From the NCBI GenBank assembly GCA_016841825.1, contig JAENYK010000016.1, positions 1 through 64,000 on the forward strand: a stretch of 64,000 bases of DNA, in the 5' to 3' direction. This stretch comes from Halothermothrix sp. (GTDB lineage Bacteria > Bacillota > Halanaerobiia > DY22613). Under the pieces are notes generated by a model. That model searched no databases. It was not told the origin of the DNA and was given only the letters and a program-made list of their open reading frames with translations. The translations under genes and the position numbers were made by a program. Positions 43,165-49,502 of this stretch are shown here, one piece after another (position 1 is the first letter of the stretch; each line of letters opens with the position of its first letter).

Positions 43165-43578
43165 TTAGTTTTCCTCTTTTTCTTCACTAACCAAAATCTC
43201 CCTTTCAGGGGAATACTGTATTGCTTCCTGAGCCAGAATCTCCTCCTGAGCTCCCTCATATCTGGCAAGATCCACTGCCATGTCATTCTTCTCACCCAAA
43301 AGTGCATCCATTTCGATTTGCGTTTTATCCAACTCTTTCTCTAAAGTTTTAATTCTACCTTTTAAAGTTCTAATTTGAAGTCTAGCTTTGATCTGCCCAA
43401 TCAATCCCAAAATCCCAATCATTAAGGCTCCAAATGCTACACTTGATAAGACTACAACAACTAGAGATGTACCCACCTCATACGAAAAAAATTTTAATGT
43501 TACTGGAGTGACATTCTGTACTGAAAATAACCCTACAGCCAGCGCAAAAACCAAAGCTATCACAACTGTCCATTGCAT
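43165..43578 (-). CDS. LapA-domain membrane protein
   Basis: A 137-residue protein with two N-terminal membrane helices (about 3-22 and 40-62) flanking SVQNVTPVTLKFF, the mark of LapA (DUF1049). A coiled coil follows (about 70-105) with an acidic tail. In Gram-negative bacteria LapA takes part in lipopolysaccharide assembly, but it is also common in Firmicutes with unknown role. I chose ATG 43578 (MQWTVV) because the first helix begins there and AGGTCG is upstream. Confidence 0.82.
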   Translation of the reverse strand: MQWTVVIALVFALAVGLFSVQNVTPVTLKFFSYEVGTSLVVVVLSSVAFGALMIGILGLIGQIKARLQIRTLKGRIKTLEKELDKTQIEMDALLGEKNDMAVDLARYEGAQEEILAQEAIQYSPEREILVSEEKEEN

Positions 43579-43761
43579 AATATTCGACCTGCCATCCAAA
43601 TATAGATATCTGAAATCTATGCTTCTCCTCATCACCAGGACTGGCAGTATTCACCCCTTTCCCTATTATATTATAAGTTACCAGATTCTCTGTTTAATTT
43701 CTAATATGAGTAAAGAATTCGCCAAAACCAACATTATTCCTGCATATGCTGTAAAGTAAAT

Positions 43762-44238
43762 TTAGAATATTATATAGAGTACCCATCCCGCCATCAACAG
43801 AGCAATTATAAAAGTAGCAACCACTCCTCCTAATACCCCAAAAAGGCTACCAACACCAACTCTGATTGCCTGATCCAAAGGACGCCCTCTGATCAATTCT
43901 ATTAAAATCGCACCCACCGGAGGGCCAACAATCAATCCGATCGGACCTAATGTAAATAGACCAACAATCAACCCAAACATCCCTCCAACAGCTCCCAGTT
44001 TACTCGCACCAAACTTTTGGGCACCAATCATACTCAAAAGATACTGCAGTCCTTCACCTAAGATCACTAATAACCCCAGAATAATTAATGTATTGATCGA
44101 AGGTACATTAAACCCAGTAGCATATGAATGAATCACTGCTCCGATTAAAATTAGAGGCGTCCCAGGTAACATCGGTAAAAAAGTCCCCAACACACCAATA
44201 ATCACCAGAACTGTTGTTATAGCTTTGTACACAACCAT
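43762..44238 (-). CDS. DUF456 membrane protein
   Basis: A 158-residue, Gly/Ile/Leu-rich protein with four to five membrane helices. The GTFLPMLPGTPLILIGA start and the glycine-zipper segment GAVGGMFGLIVGLFTLGP are typical of DUF456. The function is unknown. It is divergent from the RiPP-like cassette that begins 313 bases to its right. Confidence 0.82.
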   Translation of the reverse strand: MVVYKAITTVLVIIGVLGTFLPMLPGTPLILIGAVIHSYATGFNVPSINTLIILGLLVILGEGLQYLLSMIGAQKFGASKLGAVGGMFGLIVGLFTLGPIGLIVGPPVGAILIELIRGRPLDQAIRVGVGSLFGVLGGVVATFIIALLMAGWVLYIIF

Positions 44239-44550
44239 AGACTCTCTCCTTATCTCTCATTTTATTTAGTTTATCAAAATTACTCTCCTTAATACCTACC
44301 GATCTTCTTTCATTAGATACCTATCTATTACTCCTAATTTTAACAATATCCTTTATTTTTAGCCATCCAGTAAGACTTAATCTATAACACTTATTACGTT
44401 TTGTAACGATTATCAATGAGCTACTTTTTTCCCATTTTATATATTTATTTTTTTCATTACGCAGGACTTATAGCTTTTTTGCAGAATTATAATTTTATGG
44501 AAATGGGGTGAAGTAAGATATTTAACATCTATAACGGGGAGGTGATTTTA
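44239..44550 (+). other. divergent intergenic region upstream of the peptide cassette
   Basis: A 312-base A/T-rich gap that separates the minus-strand DUF456 gene from the plus-strand cassette and must hold promoters for both. A TATAAT hexamer is seen at 44488-44493 but its -35 partner (GACTTA at 44465-44470) is poor. No other structure was found. Confidence 0.4.
44465..44493 (+). promoter_or_regulatory. candidate promoter of the peptide cassette
   Basis: TATAAT at 44488-44493 lies 17 bases after GACTTA at 44465-44470 and 58 bases before the first peptide start. The -35 match is weak, so the promoter may need an activator or the true one lies elsewhere in the gap. Confidence 0.3.
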
Positions 44551-44655
44551 ATGTTAAATACCTGGAATTTGAAAGATTTTGACTGGAGCATTGAGACTGC
44601 CAGTAGAGAATGTTATGGCGTTGAGCCACCAATCGAATTTGAAAATAACTATTAA
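44551..44655 (+). CDS. RiPP-type precursor peptide 1
   Basis: A 34-residue peptide, first of four tandem near-copies. It starts MLNTWNLKDFDWSIETASRE and continues CYGVEPPIEFENNY. Residues 1-7 and Asp11-Trp12 are identical in all four copies, as are Thr16-Ala17, Cys21-Tyr22-Gly23 and Pro27. GGGGAGGTGA precedes the ATG at seven bases. The conserved first half looks like a leader bound by a modifying enzyme, and the second half like the core, with one Cys and one neighbouring Tyr as likely targets. A radical SAM/SPASM gene follows the fourth copy. No homologue is named from memory; the precursor call rests on copy number, pattern and context. Confidence 0.78.
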   Translation: MLNTWNLKDFDWSIETASRECYGVEPPIEFENNY

Positions 44656-44693
44656 TCTAACTAATCTAATCGCTATACAAGGAGGTGAATTTG

Positions 44694-44795
44694 ATGTTAA
44701 ATACCTGGAATCTGAAAGATTTTGATTGGAGCACTGAGACTGCCAGTAAAGAATGTTATGGCGTCGAACCACCAATCGACGAATTTGTATATTAA
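44694..44795 (+). CDS. RiPP-type precursor peptide 2
   Basis: A 33-residue peptide almost identical to the first: MLNTWNLKDFDWSTETASKE, then CYGVEPPIDEFVY. The differences are Ile14 to Thr, Arg19 to Lys and a changed C-terminal end (DEFVY). AAGGAGGTGAATTTG lies directly upstream. It starts 38 bases after the previous stop. Copies 1 and 2 share most silent positions too, so their duplication is recent. Confidence 0.78.
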   Translation: MLNTWNLKDFDWSTETASKECYGVEPPIDEFVY

Positions 44796-44831
44796 TCGAG
44801 CAACTATAATTCTTATAAGGAGGTGATTCGA

Positions 44832-44933
44832 ATGTTAAATACCTGGAATCTAAAAGAATTTGATTGGACTATCGAGACAGCAGGTGCAGTATGTTACGGG
44901 GCTAAGCCTCCTCTTGATGAATATGAATTATAA
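44832..44933 (+). CDS. RiPP-type precursor peptide 3
   Basis: A 33-residue peptide: MLNTWNLKEFDWTIETAGAV, then CYGAKPPLDEYEL. The leader-like part differs only at Asp9 to Glu and Ser13 to Thr, but the residues before and after the Cys-Tyr-Gly have changed (GAV, AKPPL). AAGGAGGTGA is upstream and the gap to the previous gene is 36 bases. Confidence 0.78.
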   Translation: MLNTWNLKEFDWTIETAGAVCYGAKPPLDEYEL

Positions 44934-44969
44934 TTGACGAGTCAGGTTTTTTATAAGGAGGTGAATTTG

Positions 44970-45071
44970 ATGTTAAATACCTGGAATCTGGAAGCTTATG
45001 ACTGGAACACTATAACAGCTACCGCTCCTTGCTATGGAACACTTCTACCTCTTCCTCCATACGAATTTTAG
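44970..45071 (+). CDS. RiPP-type precursor peptide 4 (most diverged)
   Basis: A 33-residue peptide: MLNTWNLEAYDWNTITATAP, then CYGTLLPLPPYEF. Leader residues 1-7, Asp11 and Trp12 are unchanged while most other positions differ, and Tyr replaces Phe10. Thr16-Ala17, Cys21-Tyr22-Gly23 and Pro27 remain. AAGGAGGTGAATTTG precedes it. It is the copy nearest the radical SAM gene. Confidence 0.77.
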   Translation: MLNTWNLEAYDWNTITATAPCYGTLLPLPPYEF

Positions 45072-45215
45072 TAAAAAATAAGTAATCTACATAGCATTCA
45101 CCCCATTTCCTTTCCAAAAAATTAGCAGATAGTTATCCATATTCAGAGTACAGCTACTGGTGATCAAAATTTTTTATTTTTTATGTCTCAAATATAATAT
45201 AAGGAGGAAAAATAC
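45072..45215 (+). other. spacer between peptide genes and radical SAM gene
   Basis: A 144-base non-coding gap, four times the spacing between peptide genes. It has a T-rich stretch (TTTTTTATTTTTTATG, about 45170-45185) preceded by only weak stem potential (AGTA...TACT), so partial termination that favours precursor over enzyme is possible. A TATAAGGAGG ribosome site for the enzyme ends it. Confidence 0.4.
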
Positions 45216-46262
45216 ATGAATTATTACCCACGTAAAGTAGTCTGGGAACTTACTAATGCCTGTAATGCCAAATGTATCCATTGTGGTTCTGAATCTGGCC
45301 CGAAACGGGCTAATGAAATGCCTGTAAAAGATGCCTTACGGGTCTGTGATGAATTGGGTGAATTGGGAACCAAACATGTTACCTTAATTGGAGGAGAGTG
45401 TTTCTTGAGCCCTTATTGGGACAAAGTATGTGAACGACTACTCGAAAACAATGTTCAAGTTACCCCCCTCAGTAACGGTATTTTACTGAATGAAGCTAAC
45501 TTACAATTAATGAAAAAAATTGGCCTCAAAGGTGTATCTGTCAGTATTGACGGTATTGGTGAAACCCATGACTATATTCGGGGAGTACCAAAGATGTTTG
45601 ACAAAGTTATTTCAAATATTAAGCAAGCTCAACATTTGGGATTTGGGGTTGGAGTTAATACCTCTGTTTCTAAGGTTAATATCCACGAATTACCTGCACT
45701 ATATTATTTCCTCAGAGAATTGGGTATCAAAATTTGGCAGGTTCAGATTGTTGAGGATATCGGTAAAGCTACCCGCAACACTGAATTAAAACTCGATCTG
45801 GAAGATCTGTATCAGATCGCCAAATATGTCGCCGAATTCCGTAAAAAAGAGGGTATGCGAGTCATCGTCGGTGATAATGTAGGCTTTTATGCTTCTTTTG
45901 AACCTATGATCCGTGAGCAACCTTTCACAGGCTGTTCTGCCGGAAGATGGACACTTGGAATTGAATCAACTGGTAATGTTCGTGGATGTCTCTCTGTTTT
46001 AGGAACAGACGAGAATACTGAGGGTAATCTCCGGGAAAGATCCCTTATTGACATCTGGAATGACCCGGAACTCTTTGGCGTTTACCGACAGCGAACTGTG
46101 GACAAATTGGAAGGTTTTTGTGCTGAATGTGAATTTAACAACCTTTGCCGGGCAGGCTGTTCTTCCCTATCTTATGCTTTAACTGGCAGCTTTTATGAAA
46201 ATCCTTTCTGTCTACATAAATATGAAGTTGAGCAGGGAATAGTTGAACAAAAAATGGCATAG
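45216..46262 (+). CDS. radical SAM/SPASM peptide maturase
   Basis: A 348-residue radical SAM enzyme. The cluster motif is Cys16-xxx-Cys20-xx-Cys23 in TNACNAKCIHCG, followed by the SAM-binding GGE segment (LIGGECF, about 58). The C-terminus has a complete SPASM motif: Cys240, Gly253, Cys258, Cys302, Cys305, Cys311, Cys315 and Cys332, in the exact CX(12)GX(4)C...CX2CX5CX3C...C order that binds two auxiliary Fe-S clusters. Such enzymes install thioether, C-C or other bonds in ribosomal peptides. No PqqD-like recognition domain is visible. AAGGAGG precedes the ATG. Directly upstream are four precursor-like genes, the presumed substrates. A terminator follows at 46308. Confidence 0.92.
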   Translation: MNYYPRKVVWELTNACNAKCIHCGSESGPKRANEMPVKDALRVCDELGELGTKHVTLIGGECFLSPYWDKVCERLLENNVQVTPLSNGILLNEANLQLMKKIGLKGVSVSIDGIGETHDYIRGVPKMFDKVISNIKQAQHLGFGVGVNTSVSKVNIHELPALYYFLRELGIKIWQVQIVEDIGKATRNTELKLDLEDLYQIAKYVAEFRKKEGMRVIVGDNVGFYASFEPMIREQPFTGCSAGRWTLGIESTGNVRGCLSVLGTDENTEGNLRERSLIDIWNDPELFGVYRQRTVDKLEGFCAECEFNNLCRAGCSSLSYALTGSFYENPFCLHKYEVEQGIVEQKMA

Positions 46263-46307
46263 TTTTTCAAAACGATAAGTTTGGTTCACATAACAATATA
46301 TTTAATA

Positions 46308-46336
46308 CAAAGCCCCGTTACAGGGGTTTTATTTTT
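46308..46336 (+). terminator. terminator of the peptide cassette
   Basis: AAAGCCCC and GGGGTTTT form an eight-base stem with one G-U pair around a short loop, followed by ATTTTT. It lies 46 bases past the radical SAM stop and closes the cassette. Confidence 0.75.
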
Positions 46337-46465
46337 AATCCAACTATCTGATCAGCGGGTCTATAAACAAATTTAAAGATTCCTTTGCTAATTAACTGAG
46401 TAAAAAGTATTTCTATGACATAATCTAATTTTACAGATTGAACATTAATTGTGGCAGGTGAAATT

Positions 46466-47362
46466 ATGCTTAAGATTACTATTGAAATACTAATCATGTT
46501 TATTCTAACCATTGGCATTATGCGGCTGATGGGTAAATCCAGTATCGTGCAGCTGACTCCCTATGATCTGGTAGCAATAATTATTGTAGGAACAATTATT
46601 GCCGAACCATTGATTAGTCCTGATTTCTGGCCGGCTATTCTCCGTTCAGTTATCATCGTTCTTCTCTATCTTCTCTTTGCCAAATTGAGTCTAAATCAGA
46701 TAATGAACAAATTTTTACTCGGAGAACCCAGCATCTTAATCAAACATGGTAAAATAGTGGAAGATGTATTAGAAAGAGAACATATTTCTTTAATTCAATT
46801 ATTATCTATCCTACGAACTGCCGGATACTCTAAATTGACGGAGATAGAATACGCTATTTTGGAACCAACAGGTTCCATTAGTGTTATTCCTATCTCCTCT
46901 GCCCGACCTGTCACTCTTTCTGATCTGAATATTGAAGGAGAATATGAAGGATTACCTTTAGCTGTAGTGATAGATGGAAAGATTCAAAAGAAGAATTTGC
47001 AGTTGGTCGATAAAGATGAAGCATGGGTGATGGAAAAAATTAGAAGTAAGGGTGTTACTGATCTTAAACAGATTATTTATGGATTTATCGACGACCAAAA
47101 TAGTAAAATCTATCTTAATTTGCGAGATTCGCCAAATAGCGAAAATGAGCTGATCTCAGATCAGACTACCGCTGCAAATAACGACATGAATTATACTCAA
47201 AAAATTTATCTGGTCAAAAATAAATTAATTCAATTAGACGGTTTAAAAGAAGCCCGTATCAAAAAATCTGAGTTATTCCAGATACTCAAAGTGAACAATT
47301 TATCCGGAATTGATGAAGTAGTTTTAGAAAAAAAAATCCATGTCACAACCGCCAAAGAATAA
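46466..47362 (+). CDS. DUF421 (YetF-like) membrane protein
   Basis: A 298-residue protein with three N-terminal membrane helices (about 5-75) and a cytoplasmic DUF421 domain. The RTAGYSKLTEIEYAILEPTGS segment (given here in part: AILEPTGSISVIP, about 135) is the family mark. The C-terminal 100 residues are longer than in the short YcaP form. YetF-like proteins have been tied to spore membranes in Bacilli, but the biochemical role is unknown. ATG 46466 has AGGTGA five bases upstream; GTG 46451 has none. It is on the plus strand like the cassette but is separated from it by a terminator, so it is probably its own unit. Confidence 0.88.
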   Translation: MLKITIEILIMFILTIGIMRLMGKSSIVQLTPYDLVAIIIVGTIIAEPLISPDFWPAILRSVIIVLLYLLFAKLSLNQIMNKFLLGEPSILIKHGKIVEDVLEREHISLIQLLSILRTAGYSKLTEIEYAILEPTGSISVIPISSARPVTLSDLNIEGEYEGLPLAVVIDGKIQKKNLQLVDKDEAWVMEKIRSKGVTDLKQIIYGFIDDQNSKIYLNLRDSPNSENELISDQTTAANNDMNYTQKIYLVKNKLIQLDGLKEARIKKSELFQILKVNNLSGIDEVVLEKKIHVTTAKE

Positions 47363-47520: not shown

Positions 47521-49476
47521 TTACTGTATCATTCCTTTCCTCAAGGACGCTGGATTTAGCCAATCAAAAAGAGCTGCTCCGACATAAAAATAATATCTAC
47601 CTTCCTGTTCAAGTTTGCCAAAATTCATGCCATAACCGATCTCTACATTATCACTAAAAAGAGTTAGAGCGACTCCCAATCCATATTCCACTTTATCTTC
47701 ACGAGAAATCATCACCGAAGACAATCCCACTCCCGGATTGAGTACATCATTATAAAGATAATCAGCTATCCGCCACTTTCCAGAATCATTGGGGCGATTC
47801 CCATAATGTAGAATCCAGGAAACTGCAAAGGCAGGTTGAAAAGCTTCCTGCCATCCCCCCTTAACAAAGACAAAGTTATTCGCCCAGTTATTAAAAACTC
47901 CATAACGTTTTACTACAAACGAAAACTCTCTTCTAATTACAGGTGAACCTTGACCTGTAATCTGAACATATAAAGTATAGATATCATCTTCCTGTCTTCG
48001 GGTTGCCGGTATGTCTATCACAGTAGGTGGAGCATTAGCCAGATTAACCTCTCTTGTCTGCTGAGGTTTTAACTGCTCAGAATTAGCTCTATCCCCAACA
48101 GCTGATACAAAGGATATGCGCTCAATTAAACCTTGAAAAGCAGATTTATAGTCGGAGTAATAATTATTTTTCGCCAAAATTTGCTCCAATTCAGCTAATG
48201 ATTTTGTCCAGCTCTGGGCAGTAGTATTTAAAAATCCTGCTATTTTATTGGATATCTCTATAGGTAATTCTTTCTCTAATTCTTCACTTAATTCTTTAAC
48301 CTCTTGAATAGAATGAACTACCGATCCATAAAGGTCATTTTCAACAGCCTTCCGAATATCGCTCATCAGCTTACTTAATGTATCTAATTTGCTCAAAATA
48401 TTCCTTATCTGAGTTGTGGAATCTACCTCAGAAATTGTTAATATCTCGCGAATCAGATCTTCGTAATCATCACGTAGAACAGATAATTTTAAAAATTTAT
48501 CTTTTAATCCTACCAAAACCCCCTCTAACTCCTTAAATTTGTCATCTACAGGTAATTTAGCCAATTTTGCGGTAAGCTCGTCCAAGATTTGCTCTATATC
48601 TTTAGAACCAAACAATCCCTCCAATTCTTTTAATTCTGAGACCAATTGTGTTTTTAAACTACCAATAATTTTCCTCAATTCAGAGTCTTTGTTTTGAATA
48701 TCTTCAGCCAGATCCTGGATATCCTGATATAACCCATAGTTTTCATCCAGATGAGTCATTTCTGCTTGCGACATCCCAAAAGTGATTTTTTTTACCTCAT
48801 GTTCTGAACCCATCTCTAATGAGTCATAATTGCGCAAATGAATCGCCGCTGAGTGTTGACTTTTTGATCTCTGAATACACCAGACACTCAAACTTAATTC
48901 ATTCTTTTGAATTATATCTTGCGTCTCTGCAGACAAATTTTCCTGAGTCTTATCCAAATGTTCAGCTAACAACTTTAATAAATCATTATAAGTAGGATCA
49001 GGTGTACTCAATGCCTGTCCAAGTTGTTCTTCAGTGAAAACTTTCTCTAATGTGTCCAACAAATTTAAAATAAAAGATCCCCTTCCCTTAAGTTTGCTTC
49101 TAAATTCCTGTTCCTTCTCTGGTGTCGGATCTTTCAGTAAACTTTCCCGCAGACTGCCCATCTGTTCCACATAATCACTTAATTCATCTCTACCTTCCAC
49201 CAATAACGTTTTCAATGCCAATACTTCTGCTCTTAACTTTTTGCTCTCAGGTGTAGCGATTATATCAGAATCAAAACCCAATTTTTCTGGGAAAAATTTT
49301 ACATGAATCATACTATTGATATCTACATAATACATAAATTTACCTTCCATCAGGTTTATCGTTCTTCCTTCCTGAGTGTATTCAGTAAAAGTCACAAAAC
49401 TCTCTTCCGCTCCAATAACTGCAGACCAACTAACCACAATCAATACCAGGACTAGCATACATCTGATAGTTCTCAT
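47521..49476 (-). CDS. exported coiled-coil protein with beta-barrel-like C-terminus
   Basis: A 651-residue protein with a clear signal peptide (hydrophobic about 6-18, Ala-rich cleavage site near 23). Residues about 230-450 are rich in heptads (for example DLAEDIQNKDSELRKIIGSL) and should form long coiled coils. The last 130 residues alternate polar and non-polar residues with Tyr/Gly ends (EYGLGVALTLFSDNVEIGYG), as in outer-membrane strands. No catalytic motif or known family is recognised. A diderm Firmicute could use it as an envelope tether or barrel-anchored structural protein. ATG 49476 has AAGGAGAGG upstream. It is cotranscribed with the small 49503 gene. Confidence 0.75.
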   Translation of the reverse strand: MRTIRCMLVLVLIVVSWSAVIGAEESFVTFTEYTQEGRTINLMEGKFMYYVDINSMIHVKFFPEKLGFDSDIIATPESKKLRAEVLALKTLLVEGRDELSDYVEQMGSLRESLLKDPTPEKEQEFRSKLKGRGSFILNLLDTLEKVFTEEQLGQALSTPDPTYNDLLKLLAEHLDKTQENLSAETQDIIQKNELSLSVWCIQRSKSQHSAAIHLRNYDSLEMGSEHEVKKITFGMSQAEMTHLDENYGLYQDIQDLAEDIQNKDSELRKIIGSLKTQLVSELKELEGLFGSKDIEQILDELTAKLAKLPVDDKFKELEGVLVGLKDKFLKLSVLRDDYEDLIREILTISEVDSTTQIRNILSKLDTLSKLMSDIRKAVENDLYGSVVHSIQEVKELSEELEKELPIEISNKIAGFLNTTAQSWTKSLAELEQILAKNNYYSDYKSAFQGLIERISFVSAVGDRANSEQLKPQQTREVNLANAPPTVIDIPATRRQEDDIYTLYVQITGQGSPVIRREFSFVVKRYGVFNNWANNFVFVKGGWQEAFQPAFAVSWILHYGNRPNDSGKWRIADYLYNDVLNPGVGLSSVMISREDKVEYGLGVALTLFSDNVEIGYGMNFGKLEQEGRYYFYVGAALFDWLNPASLRKGMIQ

Positions 49477-49502
49477 CAATTCCTCTCCTTTCCCTTTTCG
49501 TT

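Follow-up and report, generated by a model that had tools for sequence, protein, structure and literature searches.

Spliceases introduce backbone ketoamides into peptides, which are used for protease inhibition and bio-orthogonal labelling. The prototype splicease is PlpX, a member of IPR026482, which cuts Xaa-Tyr-Gly (PMC11002830) and removes tyramine from this motif together with the RRE protein PlpY (PMC11002830, PMC10533398). In the published motif, Tyr is followed by Gly (PMC10533398, PMC11002830). A second related arrangement is formed by radical SAM enzymes of the TIGR03913 'GDL motif' type and DUF1843 peptides (Azospirillum, Aureibacter), where several small substrates with XY[G/M/A] stand in tandem and no RRE gene is annotated alongside. 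On a plasmid of Agathobacter rectalis, a 35-aa peptide with a short leader (MFNLEEL) and an XYG motif (..PVMYGTGVRM) is encoded 82 nt before its radical SAM enzyme.

The locus described here was found in a window of 64,000 nucleotides (the whole stretch of DNA analysed) from Halothermothrix sp., contig JAENYK010000016.1. It is probably a minimal splicease-type ribosomal-peptide locus whose precursor segment is closed by an RNA stem (Table 1).

Table 1. Features of the precursor array and of the adjoining maturase gene in the window.
Feature	Position	Strand	Remarks
5' arm of bracketing stem, GGAAATGGGGTGAA	44499..44512	+	52 nt before first start codon
Precursor 1, MLNTWNLKDFDWSIETASRECYGVEPPIEFENNY	44551..44655	+	intact ORF, ribosome-binding site GGAGGTG
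Precursor 2, MLNTWNLKDFDWSTETASKECYGVEPPIDEFVY	44694..44795	+	intact ORF, ribosome-binding site GGAGGTG
Precursor 3, MLNTWNLKEFDWTIETAGAVCYGAKPPLDEYEL	44832..44933	+	intact ORF, ribosome-binding site GGAGGTG
Precursor 4, MLNTWNLEAYDWNTITATAPCYGTLLPLPPYEF	44970..45071	+	intact ORF, ribosome-binding site GGAGGTG
3' arm of bracketing stem, TTCACCCCATTTCC	45097..45110	+	25 nt after last stop
Radical SAM/SPASM maturase, 348 aa, splicease-like	45216..46262	+	CxxxCxxC at C16, C20, C23; SPASM cysteines; PF04055, PF13186

The four precursor ORFs stand in tandem (44551-45071), encode 33-34 aa and are all intact, each preceded by a strong ribosome-binding site. At the nucleotide level they form a repeat of four 99-nt copies with spacings of 143, 138 and 138 nt and with 92, 77 and 65% identity to the first copy, far above chance. 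The residues that a sequence-only reading had listed as fixed or variable in the four peptides exactly match the invariant columns of the alignment (M1-L7, D11, W12, T16, A17, C21, Y22, G23 and P27).

The maturase scored above the Pfam cut-offs for both the radical SAM and the SPASM domain (PF04055 and PF13186). Its best NCBIfam model was TIGR03913 (246.8 versus a cut-off of 591.75, not reached), followed by TIGR04103, which we take to be identical to IPR026482 (244.5 bits versus a cut-off of 725, not reached). Like the PlpXY spliceotide system of Pleurocapsa, the locus combines a radical SAM/SPASM enzyme with a single X-Y-G core motif (C-Y-G in four of four precursors) in genes adjoining the enzyme. 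Unlike PlpXY, it has 33-aa precursors, lacks a Nif11 or nitrile-hydratase-like (NHLP) leader, and has no PlpY/RRE partner nearby; its score is far under the family cut-off, and its sister clusters extend the residue after Tyr to Gly, Cys, Met or Ser over seven clusters. The precursor leader of about 12 residues has no NCBIfam match. No PqqD hit was obtained beside any of the seven maturases of the genome, in a search that a very divergent RRE could escape; PqqD/RRE-like genes do exist in this genome beside other radical SAM genes. Because the RRE partner and the leader type are lacking and the model cut-offs were missed, the enzyme is regarded as splicease-like in its action and is not assigned to TIGR04103.

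The TIGR03913 systems share the tandem small substrates, the absence of an annotated RRE gene and the best-scoring model with the window locus. They differ in that the DUF1843 substrate carries its motif near the front, whereas the motif in the window stands behind a short unrelated leader; the precursors match no NCBIfam family and do not resemble the DUF1843 peptides, and with the score under the cut-off the enzyme was not assigned to the GDL type. The Agathobacter system resembles the window in its short leader, its XYG motif and the enzyme downstream, and differs in its single precursor, the lack of a significant bracketing stem and an enzyme only 34% identical. No transporter/exporter or peptidase was recognised in the window cluster. 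A 652-aa ORF on the minus strand of the window (47521-49479) has no Pfam or NCBIfam match.

Six further maturases with 54-58% identity to the window maturase were found in the same genome, on other contigs or far off on the same contig, each adjoined by one to four short precursors. Together with an orphan precursor on contig C2, which has both bracket arms and no maturase within the 3-kb stretch read, seven clusters and 17 precursors at 8 loci were obtained, with substrate lengths of 28-41 aa over the clusters. The leaders follow the pattern M[ILV][ND]x0-2W[NDE]L, and in most of them an aromatic residue comes shortly after it (one precursor has a GTG start). All 17 contain one invariant core Tyr, as X-Y-[GCMS]; this was read from the precursor sequences themselves, since the spacing differs and a program alignment of all precursors therefore does not put Tyr in one column. 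Besides CYG in the window, the cores are PYG; PYS; VYC, IYC, AYC and LYC; and EYM, KYM, LYM, DYM and CYM. Precursor type tracks the enzyme tree, with YM in clusters B (L041) and F (L045) and PY[GS] in (E,(C,D)), that is L044, L042 and L043.

The sequence-only reading had described a conserved front, a varied rear and one fixed core motif, as enzyme recognition and core diversification would give, and this same pattern recurs in the 17 precursors of all 8 loci. CYG is indeed invariant in the four window copies; the fixed functional point is, however, the Tyr, as the sister clusters have PYG, PYS, xYC and xYM.

In three of the seven clusters (L042 8212-9696, L044 6387-7871, L045 10727-12208), the operon includes a gene for a B12-binding radical SAM protein (about 494 aa), which the window cluster lacks; this protein may be a methyltransferase that modifies the same peptides. 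The cluster with xYC precursors (L040 3997-10805) also encodes an acetolactate-synthase-like ThDP enzyme, an aminotransferase, a cupin protein and a second radical SAM/SPASM protein (Clo7bot-like).

Homologues of the maturase at about 35% identity occur in Gastranaerophilales, Thermoplasmatota, Alphaproteobacteria and others, also on plasmids. Among those with examined neighbours, most are adjoined by X-Y-[G/A/M] peptides, in several phyla. In Nostoc, a Nif11 peptide ending in GSIALYGLPPELF (ALYGLPP) stands beside a protein passing the TIGR04103 cut-off, and DUF1843 peptides with PYG, LYG, MYM and LYA adjoin TIGR03913-type enzymes. Repeated [MLV]YGI..P and YA-type motifs were found by the homologues at L022 (five copies of [MLV]YGI..P), L023, L028 and L030, and FYG/YYG peptides near those at L011 and L012. 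No XYG peptide was seen near the homologues at L013, L014 and L019-L021. In a maximum-likelihood tree, the window enzyme and the XY-motif-associated enzymes lie on one side of a branch with 100/99 support, opposite NirJ, MftC and TIGR04053, and the seven window-like enzymes group at 100/100.

Proline-rich proteins with PLAGxIAPPTP repeats instead of XYG are encoded upstream of the homologous enzyme at L019, L021 and L034, and these repeats are possibly another motif for this enzyme class. At L018 (3512-3880), repeats of the form [VI]YY[IV]APIDR, with Tyr followed by Tyr/Ile rather than Gly, stand beside a homologue.

Since X-Y-G/A/M peptides adjoin its homologues and the tree places these enzymes together, the window maturase is read as acting on Tyr by tyramine excision. 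It would recognise the first 12 residues or so of each 33-aa precursor (M[IL]N..W.L..[YFL].[WYF]) and act on the one Tyr that never varies. If it behaves as PlpX does, it would take a tyramine equivalent out of Cys-Tyr-Gly and join the ends again, with an expected mass change of -135.07 Da; what remains would be an alpha-keto-beta-amino residue bearing the Cys side chain. Through the variation of the rear half, one enzyme would then yield a small set of related products. Several points count against this reading: Cys, Met or Ser follows Tyr in sister clusters, versus Gly in the published motif; both NCBIfam cut-offs were missed; no RRE-like gene was found by the seven maturases; some homologues have no XYG peptide nearby; and no transporter or peptidase was recognised in the cluster.

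A Tyr-centred cross-link or other Tyr chemistry (cyclophane, aryl ether) in place of backbone excision would fit the same invariant core residue, as well as the variation of the residue after Tyr among sister clusters and the sequence identity of only about 33% between the window maturase and a TIGR04103-type enzyme. As the enzyme is phylogenetically bracketed by XYG-associated enzymes, those of the TIGR04103 type included, such chemistry is considered unlikely.

The second feature of the locus, which the sequence-only reading had missed, is an exact inverted repeat around the array (14 of 14 positions complementary), which encloses exactly the four precursors (p ~0.001 alone). The precursors of all other clusters and the orphan are bracketed likewise with other letters, giving ten units with complementary pairs of 13-19 bp; the 5' arm begins 38-80 nt ahead of the leading start codon, and 14-61 nt separate the final stop from the 3' arm. 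Brackets were tested with an ungapped stem score, which replaced RNAduplex energies after their signal had been swamped by gappy duplexes. Compared with random places of the same geometry, nine of the ten units gave p<=0.017 (Fisher p 3.5e-17); the tenth (A2-A3 of L040) gave p 0.16 and pairs well only with bulges. Arms of the same unit paired with a mean score of 33.4, versus 21.5 for arms of different loci, and none of 20000 permutations reached the own-pair score. As a control, two of 168 ordinary genes reached a score of 31, one of these through the precursor arms themselves.

When nine stems were compared in a fixed register, 93.7% of the cells paired, and sliding the partner lowered pairing to about 50-56%; the register was chosen by eye, which favours the unslid version. 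Seven of the 14 pairs changed on both sides (0 of 500 shuffles), one column showing GC, UA, AU and CG. The imperfect core cells comprised nine G.U (the A0-A1 unit included), one A.C and one A.A (binomial ~0.01, with events that are few and not fully independent). Because the imperfections are almost all G.U, the bracket probably pairs as RNA rather than as DNA. For clusters C, E and B4, no more than about 15 nt lie between the stop of the gene upstream and the beginning of the 5' arm, which at these places thus probably lies inside a longer transcript.

The repeats could also be DNA elements, either repeats at the ends of a mobile cassette of precursors or inversion sites for phase switching, and two observations agree with this: the orphan unit has both arms apart from any maturase in the 3-kb stretch, and similarity between units stops at the arms. 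Yet target-site duplications were not seen, the arms differ between loci while matching within each, every unit with a maturase is oriented as the maturase with no reversed arrays, and hits to the arm pattern form pairs only where precursor units lie, with no other copies. With the ratio of nine G.U to one A.C also as expected for RNA, DNA elements appear rather improbable.

Under the preferred RNA reading, the 14-bp stem between the 5' and 3' flanks would close the four-gene segment. Most likely it would separate the precursor segment from the enzyme message, through stability/protection or processing, so that more substrate than enzyme is made. Long-distance pairing of 5' and 3' ends is a feature of type I toxin mRNAs (hok, AapA), each with a single toxin gene and an antisense RNA as partner. 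The resemblance lies in the pairing between far-apart ends of an mRNA with small ORFs; here, unlike in hok/AapA mRNAs, the bracket encloses up to four ORFs, at several loci forms part of a longer operon, and has no known antitoxin. No Rfam match was obtained in 43500-46500, and a promoter scan gave nothing exceeding shuffles. No bracket was found at a second short-peptide family of the same genome (L047) or around the precursors of the distant homologues tested. A literature search for the bracket gave no match, and we know of no earlier description of an RNA device that delimits the substrate genes within an operon for peptide modification.

For the core, Cys thioether formation was considered as well, in which the radical SAM/SPASM enzyme would cross-link the conserved Cys of CYG to give a sactipeptide or ranthipeptide. 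This chemistry is common for such enzymes, C21 is invariant in the four copies, and the best solved-structure relative of the maturase is SkfB. It is nevertheless very unlikely, because several sister cores lack a Cys as thioether donor (PYG, PYS, DYM, EYM, KYM and LYM, with enzymes 56-58% identical) while Tyr is invariant; homologues, too, stand beside XYG peptides that are free of Cys.

That the copies are non-functional duplicates in degeneration, as the low identity of copy 4 to copy 1 (45%) might suggest, is hardly credible, as all ORFs and ribosome-binding sites are intact, dN/dS is below 1 in both halves and CYG is free of nonsynonymous change. The sequence-only reading had spoken of uneven decay and had named frameshift decay of pseudogenes as its counter-case; neither a frameshift nor an internal stop is present in any copy, so nothing is decaying. 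For codons 1-12 of the four copies, dN was 0.065 and dS 0.45 (dN/dS 0.14), versus 0.48 and 1.45 (0.33) for codons 13-33. Added up over all pairs of copies, the CYG codons differ at 11 synonymous sites and at 0 nonsynonymous ones. In this comparison by codon block, which that reading had proposed, the front half is slower at nonsynonymous sites, but its dS is lower too, so that the contrast in dN/dS is weaker than that in amino acids. As 60 genomes of the class and phylum were without any enzyme at E<=1e-60, the orthologue comparison that had also been proposed was limited to paralogues. Altogether, the earlier observation was confirmed and its interpretation partly supported: the outline holds, but not the decay. 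The assignment to a splicease type and the covarying long-range repeat go beyond that reading.

With moderate confidence, the seven enzymes and 17 precursors are proposed as a splicease-like family without a clustered recognition partner, acting on X-Y-[GCMS] in 28-41-aa substrates, in which a long-range RNA stem with compensating changes encloses each precursor set and delimits the substrate cistrons. If true, such a small system would be simpler to use as a tool, with its leader of about 12 residues, no clustered recognition protein and Cys at the spliced position. The genome, with seven sets of enzyme and substrates in parallel, provides natural data on the residues read by the enzyme, and the bracketing stem suggests a general way for an operon to make far more substrate than enzyme.

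Two other groups were noted in the same genome. Three radical SAM genes with PqqD/RRE hits form a separate group (L046, C22:274-289 kb), and the second tandem short-peptide family mentioned above (MLNFNDLNPTIA..., MFNDLNPIIA...; L047 9057-9713) stands beside a different radical SAM gene.
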